Under the pieces are notes generated by a model that was not told the DNA's origin, did no database searches, and saw only the letters and a list, made by a program, of their open reading frames with translations. Both the position numbers and the translations under genes were made by a program. Shown here piece after piece: positions 51,592-60,576 of a stretch of 64,000 bases of DNA (within the stretch, counting starts at the first letter, position 1; each line of letters opens with the position of its first letter). This DNA is from SAR86 cluster bacterium AG-447-A08 (GTDB lineage Bacteria; Pseudomonadota; Gammaproteobacteria; Magnimaribacterales; Magnimaribacteraceae): contig QCQA01000004.1 of the NCBI GenBank assembly GCA_003212335.1, positions 1 through 64,000 of the forward strand, read 5' to 3'.

Positions 51592-52827
51592 TTAGTCCCA
51601 GGTTAGAGCGCCACCAGTCTGGTATTCAATAACTCTAGTTTCGAAGAAGTTTTTCTCTTTTCTGAGGTCCATTATTTCCGACATCCAAGGGAAAGGATTT
51701 GTTGCACCTTCAAACTCTTCTTCTAGACCTATTTGAACTAGTCTTCTATTGGCAATGAATTGGAGGTACTCTTCCATCATGCCCGCATTCATACCAAGTA
51801 TTCCTCTCGGCATTGTGTCTCTTGCATATTGTATCTCTAGCTCTGTTCCTTCTAATATCATTTGTGCAGCTTCATGGCGCATTTGGTCATCCCATAGATG
51901 AGGATTTTCTATCTTAATTTGATTGATCATATCTATTCCAAAATTTAAGTGCATAGATTCATCTCTGAGTATGTATTGAAATTGCTCAGCCGTTCCTGTC
52001 ATCTTATTCCTTCTACCCATAGAAAGAATTTGCGTGAATCCACAGTAAAAGAAGATACCTTCTAAAACGCAATAGAAGGCTATTAAGTTTTTCAAAAGCA
52101 ATTTGTCTGTTTCATCGGTACCAGTTGTAAACCCTGGATCAGATATTTCTTTTGTATATTTCAGGCCCCAAGAAGCTTTTTTAGCTACGCTTGGTATTTC
52201 ACGGTACATATTAAAGATTTCTCCTTCATCCATACCCAATGACTCAATGCAATATTGGTAGGCATGTGTATGGATTGCTTCTTCAAAGCTTTGTCTTAAA
52301 ATATATTGTCTACACTCTGGATTTGTTATGAGTCTATAAATAGCCAGAACAAGATTATTTGCTACTAGAGAATCTGCAGTAGAGAAAAAGCCGAGATTTC
52401 TCATTACTATCATTCTTTCATCAGCCGTGAGTCCATCCTGTGATTTCCAAAGAGCAACATCTGCCGTCATATTAATTTCTTGAGGCATCCAATGATTTGC
52501 ACTTCCATCCAAATATTTTTGCCATGCCCAATCATATTTAAAAGGAACAAGTTGATTCAAATCTGCTCTGCAGTTGATCATTGCCTTATCATCTACTTGA
52601 ACTCTTCCAGCTAATCCTTCTAATTCTTCTTCACCTTGTCTCGTGTCTAATTTGTCGATCGCTTCTTGAGCTTGTTTGGCTCTATCTCCTGCCTCTACAG
52701 GGCTATATTCAGATATATTTTCTTCGACAGCTTCAACCTTTTCTTCAGCTATTACTGGCTGAGTTTCTTGGATTTTTTGAGGTTTTTGGACCTTGTCTGA
52801 TTCGTTGTAATCATCCCAATTTAACAT
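51592..52827 (-). CDS. nrdB: Ribonucleotide reductase class Ia, beta subunit
   Basis: Carries the diiron-tyrosyl radical for class Ia ribonucleotide reductase. 411 residues with a longer, acidic N-terminal region (to about 75). The metal ligands are in [12 protein letters not shown] (Glu, His and the radical tyrosine four residues on) and [13 protein letters not shown]. The C terminus ends TGGALTWD; the tail normally binds the alpha subunit. It starts 14 nt after nrdA. Oxygen dependence fits an aerobic surface-water organism. Confidence 0.97.
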
Positions 52828-52841
52828 TTTTACTCCTTAGA

Positions 52842-55709
52842 TTATTGACATGCCTCACAGTCTGGATCAAGTATTGAACAGGCTGATGGGGCTGTTGTGT
52901 TTGTTTGAGGTTGGACTTCAGGTTGAGCTGTTGCCGCAACGGCGTTGAGCTCTCCTGTTGATATAGTTGATTTCTCTGCGGTAGTAGCAGATCTTGAACG
53001 TAGATAATAGGTTGTTTTAAGACCTCTTAACCAGGCCATTCTGTACATGATGTCCAGCTTTTTCCCGTTTGGTTCATCTATATACAAGTTTAATGATTGA
53101 CTTTGATCTATCCACTTCTGTCTTCTGCTTGCTGCGTCTATCAACCACCTCGGTTCAATATCAAATGCGGTAGCAAAAAGGTCTTTAATTTCTTCAGGTA
53201 TTCTTGAGATTCCTTTTACACTGCCATCATAGTATTTAAGATCATTTATCATCACCGAATCCCATAACCCCAGCTCTTTTAACTTTTCTACCATCGGAAT
53301 ATTGGTTACAGTAAATTCACCTGAAAGATTCGATTTTACATATAAGTTTTGATAAGTAGGTTCTATTGACTGAGAGACTCCCGTTATATTTGCTATTGTG
53401 GCTGTTGGTGCAATTGCCATAACATTTGAGTTTCTCATACCTTGTTTTCTTACAACTTCTCTTAAGCTATCCCAATCCATTGAGGAGCTTTCATCAACAT
53501 CAAGATAATCATTACCTCTACTTTCTTTAAGTAATTTTATGGAATCTATTGGCAGAATCCCTTGGCTCCACAGAGAGCCTTCATATGATTGATACTTTCC
53601 TCTTTCAGCAGCAAGATCACTTGATGCTTTTATCGCATAATAGCTGACCATTTCCATTGACCTATCTGCAAAGTCCACTGCTTCTTGTGAAGCATACGGT
53701 GTATTCAACATATAGAGAGCATCATGGAATCCCATAATGCCGAGACCTATTGGCCTATGTTTCATATTTGATGTTTCGGCTGCTTGGACTGCATAAAAAT
53801 TAATATCTATGACGTTATCAAGCATTCTTATAGCTGTATTTATTGTTTTTTCTAGCTTGGTTTCATCCATCTCACCATCTTTTATATGGTGAGTTAAATT
53901 AACAGAGCCTAGATTGCAGACAGCTATCTCGTCTTGGCTTGTATTCAAGGTTATCTCTGTGCATAGGTTAGATGAGTGAACAACCCCTGTGTGTTGTTGT
54001 GGTGAACGTAGATTGCATACATCTTTAAAGGTTATCCAAGGATGTCCAGTTTCAAAGACCATAGAGAGCATCTTTTTCCAAAGCTCCTTTGCATCAACTT
54101 CTTTATAAAACTCTATTTCCCCTGTTAGAGTTTGTGCTTCGTATTCTTCATATCTTTTTTCGAAATCGAGACCGTAGAGATCATGTAAATCTGGTGTGTC
54201 GCTTGGTGTAAATAAAGTCCATTTTTTATCTTCTGATACTCTCTTAAGGAATAAATCTGGTACCCAGTTAGCCGTATTCATATCGTGAGTGCGTCTTCTG
54301 TCATCTCCTGTATTTTTTCTTAGTTCTACAAACTCTTCTATATCCATATGCCAAGTTTCTAGATAAGAACATACTGCTCCTTTCCTTTTTCCTCCTTGAT
54401 TTACAGCCACAGCTGTATCGTTAACAACTTTCAAGAATGGAACTACTCCTTGTGATTTGCCATTTGTACCTTTGATCTGCGACCCTAGACCTCTTACTGG
54501 CGTCCAGTCATTTCCTAATCCGCCTGCCCATTTAGATAGCATTGCATTATCTTGAATAGCCCCATAAATTCCGTGTAAATCATCTGGGACAGTAGTCAAG
54601 TAACAAGAAGATAACTGTGAATGCTTCGTCCCTGAATTGAAGAGAGTAGGAGTGGAGCTCATATAGTCAAAACTTGAAAGAAGGTTATAAAATTCTATTG
54701 CTCTTTCTTCTCTGTTCTCTTCACGTAAGGCAAGTCCCATAGATACTCTCATAAAAAACACTTGAGGCAATTCATATCTTATTTCTGTATCGTGAATAAA
54801 ATACCTGTCGTAGAGTGTTTGGAGTCCTAAATATGTAAATAAATTATCTCTGGATGGGTCTATTGCTTGGCCCAGTTTTTCTATATCCATCTCCAAAAGC
54901 TCTGGATTTAAGATTTCATTCTCTACTCCCTTTGCTAGGAAATTTCTAAAAGCTTGTGGGTAGAGCTCTTGCATTTCTGTTTGTGTTGCTTGTTTTTGCA
55001 TACCCAAGTATGTAAGAGATTCTGTTCTTATGTTATCGAGTAATATTCTTGCTGTTACATAAGTATAGTTAGGCTCTTGTTCTACTAACGTTCTTGCTGT
55101 CATCACAAGAGACGTTCTAGCATCTTCTTCAGTTACACCGTCATATAGATTTTTGTTGGCTTCTTCTATAATTAAATTGGAATCTGTGCCTTCGAGTTCT
55201 TCGCAGGCTTCTGCCACCATTTTTTCTAGGCGATTTAGATCCAGAGTATCTTCTTCTCCATTTTCTAAAGTTATTTTGATTCCTTCTTTTTCTTCTTTTT
55301 GAGGAGATTCTTGTTGCCTCAATTGTTTCCTTTCTTCTCTGTATAGAACGTAGGCTCTGGCAACTTTTTGTTCTCCTGACCTCATCAATTCTAACTCTAC
55401 TTGGTCTTGTATTTCTTCAATGTGTAGAGTGCCCCCAGATGGCATTCTTCTGTTAAAAGTATTTGTTACAGCGTTTGCTAGCTCATTTACTTCGTTGTGT
55501 ATTCTTGTTGATGCTGCGGCAGCTCCTCCTTCAACCGCAAGGAATGCTTTGGTTATAGCTATAGCAATTTTCTCTGCGTCGTATGAAACAACCGATCCAT
55601 TTCTTTTGATGACCCTCATCTGCCCAGGAGCTATTGCTGGTTTTTGTTGTTCTTGCGCTGTTTGGGTTGTTTTTTCTGTTTTTTCTGCTGTTTGAGTCGA
55701 TGATTCCAT
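52842..55709 (-). CDS. nrdA: Ribonucleotide reductase class Ia, alpha subunit, two ATP-cones
   Basis: Catalytic subunit making dNDPs. 955 residues. After a Gln/Thr-rich lead there are two ATP-cone-like regulatory domains: residues about 30-130 (MRVIKRNGSVVSYDAEKI) and about 147-235 (IKITLENGEEDTLDLNRL). The barrel follows with SSCYLTTVPDD, the N-C-E site HSSNLCTEITLN and the CNLGSVNL segment. It ends with the redox pair CEAC (DPDCEACQ). Two cones indicate allosteric control by dATP/ATP, though one may be degenerate. The promoter region holds NrdR boxes. Confidence 0.97.
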   Translation of the reverse strand: MESSTQTAEKTEKTTQTAQEQQKPAIAPGQMRVIKRNGSVVSYDAEKIAIAITKAFLAVEGGAAAASTRIHNEVNELANAVTNTFNRRMPSGGTLHIEEIQDQVELELMRSGEQKVARAYVLYREERKQLRQQESPQKEEKEGIKITLENGEEDTLDLNRLEKMVAEACEELEGTDSNLIIEEANKNLYDGVTEEDARTSLVMTARTLVEQEPNYTYVTARILLDNIRTESLTYLGMQKQATQTEMQELYPQAFRNFLAKGVENEILNPELLEMDIEKLGQAIDPSRDNLFTYLGLQTLYDRYFIHDTEIRYELPQVFFMRVSMGLALREENREERAIEFYNLLSSFDYMSSTPTLFNSGTKHSQLSSCYLTTVPDDLHGIYGAIQDNAMLSKWAGGLGNDWTPVRGLGSQIKGTNGKSQGVVPFLKVVNDTAVAVNQGGKRKGAVCSYLETWHMDIEEFVELRKNTGDDRRRTHDMNTANWVPDLFLKRVSEDKKWTLFTPSDTPDLHDLYGLDFEKRYEEYEAQTLTGEIEFYKEVDAKELWKKMLSMVFETGHPWITFKDVCNLRSPQQHTGVVHSSNLCTEITLNTSQDEIAVCNLGSVNLTHHIKDGEMDETKLEKTINTAIRMLDNVIDINFYAVQAAETSNMKHRPIGLGIMGFHDALYMLNTPYASQEAVDFADRSMEMVSYYAIKASSDLAAERGKYQSYEGSLWSQGILPIDSIKLLKESRGNDYLDVDESSSMDWDSLREVVRKQGMRNSNVMAIAPTATIANITGVSQSIEPTYQNLYVKSNLSGEFTVTNIPMVEKLKELGLWDSVMINDLKYYDGSVKGISRIPEEIKDLFATAFDIEPRWLIDAASRRQKWIDQSQSLNLYIDEPNGKKLDIMYRMAWLRGLKTTYYLRSRSATTAEKSTISTGELNAVAATAQPEVQPQTNTTAPSACSILDPDCEACQ

Positions 55710-55751: not shown

Positions 55752-55767
55752 TCCCTATATATTGTGT
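55752..55767 (-). promoter_or_regulatory. NrdR-like box 1 upstream of nrdA
   Basis: A 16-bp palindrome ending CTATATATTGTGT, matching the NrdR box pattern acaCwAtATaTwGtgt at about 13 of 16 positions. It lies 43 nt upstream of the nrdA start. Confidence 0.75.
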
Positions 55768-55783
55768 CTAGTTTTAATAACAG

Positions 55784-55799
55784 ACACAAGATACTGTGT
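55784..55799 (-). promoter_or_regulatory. NrdR-like box 2 upstream of nrdA
   Basis: ACACAAGATACTGTGT, about 14 of 16 matches to the NrdR box and nearly palindromic. It starts 32 bp from box 1, i.e. three helical turns, the spacing typical of paired NrdR boxes. Confidence 0.78.
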
Positions 55800-55849
55800 T
55801 TTTAACAAAAACACAATACTATAAACATACAAATTTTCTGTTAATTTTC

Positions 55850-55858
55850 TGTGGATAA
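55850..55858 (-). promoter_or_regulatory. Perfect DnaA box upstream of nrdA
   Basis: TTATCCACA on the minus strand, an exact consensus DnaA box, 141 nt from nrdA and 47 nt from glpK. DnaA is known to act on the nrdAB promoter in E. coli; here the role is inferred. Confidence 0.7.
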
Positions 55859-55904: not shown

Positions 55905-57371
55905 ATGAAAGAAAAAATCATCTCAATTGATCAGGGTACTTCAAGCACACGTTCCGTCTTATATGATAAAAAAGGACAATATATTGATTCAGTTCAACAA
56001 GAATTTGACCAACTTTTTCCCAGTGAAGGATGGGTGGAGCACAATCCAGATCAAATTTGGAAAACAGTTATTGATACTCTTTCTTCCCTTGTTCAAAGAA
56101 ATGGACTAGCAAGTGAAGAGATAGCTTCTATAGGTATAACAAACCAGAGAGAAACAACTATTGTATGGAATAAAAAAACAGGAAAACCAATTTACAATGC
56201 CATAGTCTGGCAAGATCGACGCACGGCAAGTTTTTGCGAAGAGCTAGTTTCTTATGAAAAAGAAATTCAGAAGAAAACAGGCTTAACAATAGATCCCTAT
56301 TTTTCTGCTACTAAAGTTAATTGGATATTAAGTAACGTTGATGGGGCTGCAGAATTAGCACAAAAGGGCGACTTATTATTCGGTACAGTAGATACTTTCT
56401 TGATATGGAAAATGACTGAAGGACAGCAGCATTTAACTGATGTAACAAATGCTTCTAGAACCATGCTATTTAATATAGTTGATCAGGTATGGGATGAAGA
56501 ATTATTGGAGTTATTTAAGATTCCAAGAAATATGCTTCCTGACGTTTGTGACAATGTTCATAATTTCGGTATAACAAATATATTAGGTGGTGATGTCAGT
56601 ATAGGAGGGGTAGCAGGAGATCAACAAGCTGCACTGATAGGACAATGCTGCTTTTCCCCCGGAGAAATCAAAAGTACTTACGGTACTGGTTGCTTTATGA
56701 TTGTTAATACAGGCAATAAAGCATTGTTTTCCAAGAATAAATTACTTACAACAATTGGTTACAGGCTCAACGGGGAAACTTCTTATGCGCTGGAAGGGAG
56801 TATTTTTGTAGCTGGCTCTGCAATACAGTGGTTAAGAGACGGTTTAGATTTTTTTGAGAATTCTTCAGAGACTGAAGCACTCGCTCAAAAAGGCTCGCCT
56901 GAATCAAATGTGCTAGTCGTACCCGCACTTACCGGTTTAGGGGCGCCATATTGGGATGCTGAAGCTAGGGGAGCTATTTTTGGACTAACAAGAGATACAG
57001 GCAGAGAGGACATAATTAAGGCAACCCTAGAATCTGTAGCCTATCAAACTAAAGATCTAGTTGAGGCAATGAAAAAAGACAAAGCTAGTCTGGACAAACT
57101 TATGATAGATGGAGGAATGGTTGCAAATAATTGGTTTTGCCAAAAACTTGCTAATACTCTTCGTGTTGATGTTTCTCGACCAAAAATTATTGAAACAACA
57201 TCATTAGGAGCTGCCTTCCTTGCGGGAATGAATGCTGGACTATTTGAAGATCTTAAATCACTACGAAAATTAAAGGTGATAGATAGATCATTTACTCCTG
57301 TGGAGGAGGTAGATAGTTACCTCGATTGGAAAGAGGCAGTTTCGAAAGTTCTGACAAATAAATTAGTTTAA
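55905..57371 (+). CDS. glpK: Glycerol kinase
   Basis: Phosphorylates glycerol to glycerol-3-phosphate. 488 residues of the FGGY family: ISIDQGTSSTRSVLYDKKG at the start (phosphate loop), GITNQRETTIVWNKKTGKP near residue 82, NAIVWQDRRTA near residue 103, YGTGCFMIVNTG near residue 265, and the C-terminal LMIDGGMVANNWFCQKLAN. No glpF or glpD is near, but the phosphodiesterase at 50858 also yields glycerol phosphate. The gene is divergent from nrdA and shares its regulatory gap. Its end overlaps argF by 9 nt. Confidence 0.96.
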   Translation: MKEKIISIDQGTSSTRSVLYDKKGQYIDSVQQEFDQLFPSEGWVEHNPDQIWKTVIDTLSSLVQRNGLASEEIASIGITNQRETTIVWNKKTGKPIYNAIVWQDRRTASFCEELVSYEKEIQKKTGLTIDPYFSATKVNWILSNVDGAAELAQKGDLLFGTVDTFLIWKMTEGQQHLTDVTNASRTMLFNIVDQVWDEELLELFKIPRNMLPDVCDNVHNFGITNILGGDVSIGGVAGDQQAALIGQCCFSPGEIKSTYGTGCFMIVNTGNKALFSKNKLLTTIGYRLNGETSYALEGSIFVAGSAIQWLRDGLDFFENSSETEALAQKGSPESNVLVVPALTGLGAPYWDAEARGAIFGLTRDTGREDIIKATLESVAYQTKDLVEAMKKDKASLDKLMIDGGMVANNWFCQKLANTLRVDVSRPKIIETTSLGAAFLAGMNAGLFEDLKSLRKLKVIDRSFTPVEEVDSYLDWKEAVSKVLTNKLV

Positions 57372-59522: not shown

Positions 59523-59880
59523 TCTTTTAAGTTATTGTTTTATTTATAGATTTATTTTTAATGATCTAAAACCCACAAGCAAAAGGTTTTTCACTAAAAT
59601 TACGCACAGTTTCTTGCTCAAGACTGAAAAAAGCATCAATAGTCAATATATTTATAATTTATAAACAAAAATAATCAATATTTCTTTTAAAGTATTGATT
59701 TTGTTAACTTTATTAAAATATGTTTGAAATTTGATCAATTCGCTGAAACTCGCTTATTTTTTCTAACAAAGAAAAAACATCTAAGTTATCCAAAGAGTTA
59801 TCCACAGAAAATGTGGATAAAAAAAAGCGTACTTAACAAAGAAGTTTTTAATCTTTTATTTATTCTTCATAATTGAAATT
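59523..59880. other. A+T-rich gap with DnaA-box cluster (candidate DnaA-binding locus or origin)
   Basis: The longest gene-free stretch of the window. It is very A+T-rich, most strongly at 59640-59730, where an inverted repeat AATCAATA/TATTGATT occurs (59673-59680 and 59693-59700). At its right end are three DnaA boxes within 35 bp: TTATCCAAA at 59786, TTATCCACA at 59798 and its inverted copy at 59812-59820. A weaker TTACGCACA lies near 59600. This is the make-up of an origin or DnaA-titration site, but no dnaA, mnmG or parAB genes are near. I see no RNA gene. Confidence 0.5.
59786..59820. promoter_or_regulatory. Cluster of three DnaA boxes, two forming a palindrome
   Basis: Box 1 TTATCCAAA (59786-59794, one mismatch) and box 2 TTATCCACA (59798-59806) are in the same direction. 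Box 3 TGTGGATAA (59812-59820) is the exact inverse of box 2 with a GAAAA spacer. They sit 61 nt before ung. Confidence 0.75.
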
Positions 59881-60576
59881 ATGACTGCTAGAAAAATGCC
59901 GAATATGGATATATCTTGGTTAGTAGCCCTTGAAGATGAATTCAAAAAACCCTATATGTTGAATCTAAGGCAATTTTTAATTCAAGAAAAATCTAAGAAC
60001 AAAATAATTTTTCCTCCTAATGAAAAAACATTTTCTTCCTTCCAATTAACCTCTTTAAACGAAGTAAAGTTAGTCATCATTGGTCAAGATCCTTACCATG
60101 GAGTGGGACAGGCTAATGGCCTTGCGTTTTCTGTAGAAAAAGATACTAAAATCCCACCTTCTCTGATTAACATCTACAAAGAATTAGAAGAAGATATAAA
60201 TCTGCAACCACCCAATCATGGAGATTTAACATTTTGGGCTAAGCAAGGCGTATTACTTTTAAATTCTGTACTGACTGTTGTAAAAGGTGAGCCTGCTTCT
60301 CACTCTGGTAAAGGATGGGAGATATTTACAGACAAAGTAATTGAAATATTGAACCAAAAAGAAAATATAGTTTTTATGTTATGGGGTAGCTATGCTCAAA
60401 AGAAAGGATCAATAATAGATGCCTCCAAGCATTGTGTATTGAAAGCTCCTCATCCTTCTCCTTTATCAGCTCATAGAGGATTTTTTGGTTCAAAGCATTT
60501 TTCAAAAGCGAACCAATATCTTATAACGAAAGGGAAGACTCCCATAAAGTGGACTCAAGAAGAGATTAATTACTAA
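59881..60576 (+). CDS. ung: Uracil-DNA glycosylase
   Basis: Removes uracil from DNA after cytosine deamination or dUTP incorporation. 231 residues, full length, with the catalytic water-activating motif GQDPYHGVGQANGLAFSV near residue 68, GVLLLNSVLTV near residue 122, and the leucine loop HPSPLSAHRGFFGSKHF near residue 190. The start is ATG 59881. The 3' end overlaps the convergent ygfZ by 11 nt. Confidence 0.98.
   Translation: MTARKMPNMDISWLVALEDEFKKPYMLNLRQFLIQEKSKNKIIFPPNEKTFSSFQLTSLNEVKLVIIGQDPYHGVGQANGLAFSVEKDTKIPPSLINIYKELEEDINLQPPNHGDLTFWAKQGVLLLNSVLTVVKGEPASHSGKGWEIFTDKVIEILNQKENIVFMLWGSYAQKKGSIIDASKHCVLKAPHPSPLSAHRGFFGSKHFSKANQYLITKGKTPIKWTQEEINY

Follow-up and report, generated by a model that had tools for sequence, protein, structure and literature searches.

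NrdR-like boxes and a position-conserved DnaA box at the nrdAB promoter of a SAR86 genome

Expression of nrdAB in Escherichia coli is regulated by DnaA both positively and negatively (PMC8203912; PMC11853086). DnaA binds E. coli double boxes in which the two sites are 2-3 bp apart, nrdA included, and this form is preferred in vivo (PMC11317965). NrdR, in turn, requires an integer number of helical turns between its boxes, with spacers of 14-17 bp binding well (PMC12051234). The E. coli nrdA promoter carries three NrdR boxes, of which box 0 and box 1 together bind NrdR very weakly (KD > 6000 nM), the true pair being box 1 and box 2 with a KD of about 100 nM (PMC12176259). The two DARS of E. coli share the same spacing between their DnaA boxes, with box I in the opposed orientation (PMC5742627), and two papers (PMC4245941; PMC8682772) describe conservation of the DARS2 core for E. 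coli-related species only.

The DNA analysed here (hereafter the window) is a 64,000-nt stretch of a SAR86-group genome of 1.54 Mb that is 88% complete. SAR86 is an abundant ocean lineage. The window carries an nrdA gene whose product has SAR86 single-cell genomes as its nearest named relatives, and close relatives of this NrdA were found in 55 of 61 related genomes. No other gene in the genome matches PF02867, so nrdA is the single gene for a ribonucleotide reductase (RNR) large subunit. The divergently transcribed glpK begins at 55905 on the plus strand and nrdA at 55709 on the minus strand, leaving a gap of 195 bp. A preliminary description of the window had placed paired NrdR-like palindromes and an exact DnaA box within this gap, and both are real and correctly located. 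The genes and sites are as follows.

51592..52827, minus strand: nrdB, small subunit, directly downstream of nrdA; an open reading frame named by its position and recognisable sequence
52842..55709, minus strand: nrdA, class Ia ribonucleotide reductase large subunit, 955 aa (PF02867, 655 bits)
55752..55767, minus strand: NrdR-like box at the position of E. coli box 1 (+26 from the -10), forward TCCCTATATATTGTGT, coding strand ACACAATATATAGGGA, 14/16
55784..55799, minus strand: NrdR-like box at the position of E. coli box 0 (-6 from the -10), lying over the -10, forward ACACAAGATACTGTGT, coding strand ACACAGTATCTTGTGT, 14/16
55788..55793, minus strand: predicted -10, TATCTT
55811..55816, minus strand: predicted -35, TTGTGT, with a 17-bp spacer to the -10
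55839..55847, minus strand: weak second DnaA slot, AAATTAACA, 5/9, 2 bp after the first box
55850..55858, minus strand: exact DnaA box, TTATCCACA, 56 bp upstream of the nrdA -10
55905..57371, plus strand: glpK, glycerol kinase, divergent neighbour of nrdA

Read along the coding strand towards nrdA, the order is DnaA box, weak slot, -35, -10 inside the palindrome ACACAGTATCTTGTGT, and then the palindrome ACACAATATATAGGGA. The promoter elements and the weak slot, together with a DARS-like element about 4 kb away that is described below, were missing from the preliminary description. Comparisons within the family were made across 29 loci, comprising the members of the window's SAR86 family with sequence available, whose NrdA proteins are 67-100% identical at the N-terminus. 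The predicted -10 is invariant in all 29, and the -35 reads TTGTGT in 19, TTGTAA in nine and TTGATT in one. An alternative nrdA promoter candidate, TTAACA-17-TAGTAT, is also possible.

By frequency alone the exact DnaA 9-mer is not beyond chance, with three occurrences in the window against 0.67 expected, and ten genome-wide against 17 for the reversed pattern. A chance match at nrdA, which these frequencies would fit, was nevertheless rejected on conservation. The box is exact in 27 of the 29 family loci and carries one mismatch in the other two, and its distance to TATCTT is 56 bp in every one of them while the flanking sequence drifts. The NrdR-like boxes likewise hold exact positions at all 29 loci. 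Loss of the boxes in close relatives had been named as a refutation of the preliminary description, and it was not seen. At seven loci of a second SAR86 family the DnaA box lies 54-55 bp from the -10, and the positions of the NrdR and DnaA sites persist through the order and elsewhere in Gammaproteobacteria. The second slot would complete a double box with the two sites 2-3 bp apart, and its match rises from 5/9 in the window to as much as 7/9 in sister genera (AAATCCACA). At an offset of +11 from the DnaA box, the mean match in other genera of the family is 6.1/9 (z 3.4). A different layout is seen in SAR86 family f2 (nine loci), where a pair of exact DnaA boxes separated by about 110 bp stands upstream of nrdA in most members, along with a nearly perfect NrdR box, TCACAATATATTGTGT, at another NrdR spacing.

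The glpK start is 46 bp away from the DnaA box, and glpK remains the divergent neighbour of nrdA through three SAR86 families, so that the box could in principle serve glpK, or both divergent genes. The spacing argues otherwise. Across families the box stands anywhere from 18 to 61 bp from the glpK start, whereas its distance to the nrdA -10 holds constant at 54-56 bp. Where glpK is not the neighbour, the DnaA box and NrdR-like sites still stand upstream of nrdA: in SAR86 family f4 the box has at most one mismatch, and in many Pseudomonas and Zhongshania relatives it is exact at nrdA. A constant interval to the nrdA -10, a variable one to glpK, and retention where glpK is not the neighbour together assign the predicted DnaA site to nrdA. 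DnaA control of glpK was rejected as there is no fixed distance between box and gene, and a role for the box at glpK, alone or shared, is very improbable. The earlier suggestion that the box may also affect glpK is thus unsupported, and glpK is probably not a DnaA target.

The two NrdR-like boxes each differ from the consensus ACACWATATATWGTGT at two positions, and they are the only sites within two mismatches of it in a scan of the 64-kb window. They lie 32 bp apart from start to start, with a 16-bp linker that gives an integer number of helical turns. At the position of E. coli box 2 no third NrdR box is present in SAR86 (best match 9/16). Upstream, 32 bp before box 0, a third NrdR-like site reaches just 11/16 in some relatives. 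With box 2 absent, repression would depend on the better box 0 of SAR86. The weakly binding pair of E. coli, boxes 0 and 1, occupies the very positions of the SAR86 pair, which counts against this arrangement. We infer that the functional NrdR pair of SAR86 sits one step upstream of that of E. coli and covers the -10, since the downstream box is absent and box 0 is much better. A rival reading has the +26 box as the sole functional one. The palindrome covering the -10 would then be conserved only because the promoter is, which is largely the case for E. coli box 0. Box 0 barely affects binding in E. coli (PMC12176259), and TATCTTGT is widely conserved, even in sequences whose palindrome has a degraded left arm. 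However, both outer arms of box 0, ACAC and GTGT, are retained in nearly all members of the window's family, SAR86 has no box 2 to stand in for box 0, and a single box is unlikely to be enough for a tetramer that bridges two. A single functional box is considered unlikely, and the pair covering the -10 is the reading carried forward.

The genes for both candidate regulators were found. An nrdR gene is present next to glyA and ribD (C8:856-981, 79 bits), so that the second refutation named in the preliminary description, a genome lacking nrdR, does not apply. Within the order, 38 of 40 near-complete genomes carry nrdR, as do 175 of the full set of 203, in which many are incomplete. The genome also contains dnaA and a second protein with an Hda-type lid, about 250 aa long and consistent with Hda. 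Just upstream of dnaA lie two opposed exact DnaA boxes (C18:13804-13841), facing the rpmH/rnpA side. As in Pseudomonas, these paired boxes probably mark oriC or a region of dnaA autoregulation.

To place the position of the DnaA box in a broader context, nrdA upstream regions were collected across Gammaproteobacteria, mostly from one genome per family. Extraction was anchored on NrdA, in place of a class-wide search with the exact pattern, to avoid selecting on the DnaA box, and the promoter calls took no account of DnaA boxes. Of 36 promoters with good scores, 16 have an exact DnaA box at a distance of 20-70 bp upstream from the -10, and all 16 boxes share one orientation. Their distances to the -10 are 33, 34, 43, 44 (seven promoters), 45, 54, 55 (three promoters) and 56 bp, falling into classes of 33-34, 43-45 and 54-56 bp only, with none out of phase. 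The best-fitting period is 10.9 bp with a vector length of 0.95, a value to be read with the period having been fitted, the sample not fully independent and the uniform null taking no account of ancestry; none of 5000 uniform simulations exceeded 0.76. Mean similarity to the DnaA box, calculated over 32 promoters, has its maxima 22, 33, 44 and 55 bp upstream of the -10. Among named genomes forming an independent set, Pseudomonas species have the box at either 32-34 or 43-44 bp. Some DnaA boxes at low-scoring promoter calls are out of phase, at 37, 58, 59, 68, 82 and 116 bp, and these are probably mis-called promoters.

Because the exact boxes occupy just three spacings in one orientation, the register suggests an array of DnaA sites at nrdA promoters in steps of 11 bp. 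The pattern is consistent with DnaA sites repeated in tandem at a 2-bp separation, the strong box taking different slots from one lineage to the next. The box could also be held in place by common descent of the nrdA promoter and not by selection on helical phase; most members of the class are in the 44-bp state, so that the cases are not independent. Ancestry is nonetheless improbable as the explanation, given that there are three discrete states about 11 bp apart, that the 33- and 44-bp states are both present within Pseudomonas, that no exact box at a good promoter departs from the phase, and that the mean match peaks at the same intervals. A literature search made largely outside subscription journals found no description of an 11-bp register. 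A register rule of this form (33-34, 43-45 or 54-56 bp, one orientation) makes the poorly understood action of DnaA at promoters directly testable. In six genomes of the class-wide sample NrdA is interrupted in frame by about 400 inserted residues, mostly near query residue 435, in open reading frames of about 1320-1400 aa. These insertions, found in several gammaproteobacteria, are possibly inteins.

Close to the nrdA-glpK region, and separate from the nrdA promoter, lies a further cluster of DnaA boxes.

59786..59820, no strand assigned: DARS-core-like triple DnaA box, TTATCCAAA, 3 bp (gag), TTATCCACA, 5 bp (gaaaa), TGTGGATAA; 60 bp upstream of ung

The ung gene starts at 59881, and the element is about 4 kb from the nrdA promoter. 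Reverse-complemented, it reads box I, 5 bp, inverted box II, 3 bp and box III, where box III corresponds to TTATCCAAA with one mismatch. The cores of E. coli DARS1 and DARS2 are built in the same way, with box I inverted relative to boxes II and III and spacers of 5 and 3 bp. The surroundings differ, the E. coli DARS lying near uvrB or mutH and the SAR86 element upstream of ung. An inverted pair with the 5-bp spacer was found in 27 of 35 family genomes, and pairs with any other spacer from 3 to 8 bp were found in none of the 35. At all 20 family loci examined the element stands 48-120 bp before ung, and in family genomes with nrdA on the same contig it is about 4 kb from the nrdA promoter. In another SAR86 family a DARS-like core lies 4.7 kb from nrdA (G036, C1:310147).

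Across the class, a DARS-core pattern with seven spacer lengths allowed was found in 156 of 369 gammaproteobacterial genomes, against one for a reversed control. The spacer is 5 bp in every match listed, and 30 of 30 loci examined lie outside long open reading frames. If the cores in these sampled genomes are functional, DnaA recharging sites would extend far beyond the E. coli-related species covered by the papers cited above. At ten loci, from several families, the DARS-like core adjoins a gene that, named by eye, resembles priA, encoding the replication restart helicase. Two genomes from other gammaproteobacterial families have a DARS-like core upstream of nrdA itself, in one case about 430 bp from its DnaA box (G336, C36:29233) and in the other about 450 bp upstream of the start of the NrdA match (G257, C6:193201).

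Taken together, it is very likely that the nrdAB promoter is under joint control by NrdR and DnaA, with DnaA anchored upstream and glpK probably not a target. The proposal that dNTP supply is tied to both regulators is supported by the conservation and position of the sites, the presence of nrdR and of an Hda-like gene, and the precedent of E. coli, although binding, the direction of each effect and any cooperation of NrdR and DnaA at nrdA are inferred from sequence. In the proposed mechanism, the TTGTGT-17-TATCTT promoter would read into nrdA, and NrdR, sensing dATP, would repress by covering the -10. With the consensus box as its anchor, on a constant helical face, DnaA would extend along a row of weaker sites in 11-bp register towards the -35. 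At low occupancy DnaA may help RNA polymerase, and at high levels of DnaA-ATP it would reach towards the -35 and repress, as described for E. coli. The outcome would be a supply of dNTPs linked to both nucleotide level and the state of the initiator. A broader proposal is put forward tentatively and is somewhat less likely to hold than to fail: that Gammaproteobacteria share a phase-locked row of DnaA slots 22, 33, 44 and 55 bp from the nrdA -10, with the slot of the strong box specific to lineage; that SAR86 uses the farthest slot, its NrdR pair having shifted upstream by one box onto the -10; and that a DARS-type DnaA-reactivation element at a distance of about 4 kb would place dNTP supply and the recharging of DnaA under control from one neighbourhood.

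Compared with E. coli, much of the arrangement is held in common. The E. coli nrdA promoter, TTGCAA-17-TATCTTG, has the same TATCTT -10 and 17-bp spacer as SAR86, its NrdR boxes at -6 and +26 from the -10 are at positions identical to those of SAR86, and the upstream consensus DnaA box has the same orientation in both. The box at +26 (box 1) scores 14/16 in each, whereas that at -6 (box 0) scores 14/16 in SAR86 and 10/16 in E. coli, and E. coli has box 2 at +57 from the -10, which SAR86 is without. The DnaA box lies 56 bp from the -10 in SAR86 and 34 bp in E. coli, placing it two helical turns further upstream in SAR86, and the second DnaA slot is weaker than in the E. coli double box. Compared with NrdR box pairs in general, from operons for class I, II and III RNRs, SAR86 shares two palindromes about three helical turns apart before the RNR operon and differs in having the upstream box exactly over the -10. 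The layout is no peculiarity of streamlined genomes and proves to be general in Gammaproteobacteria. Its presence in SAR86 suggests that the coupling of dNTP synthesis to both nucleotide level and the initiator is ancient in the class and survives genome reduction. The predicted control of SAR86 nrdAB by NrdR and DnaA is of a kind already known from E. coli, to which the present comparison would add the strict register of the DnaA box, the shifted NrdR pair and the DARS-like neighbour.
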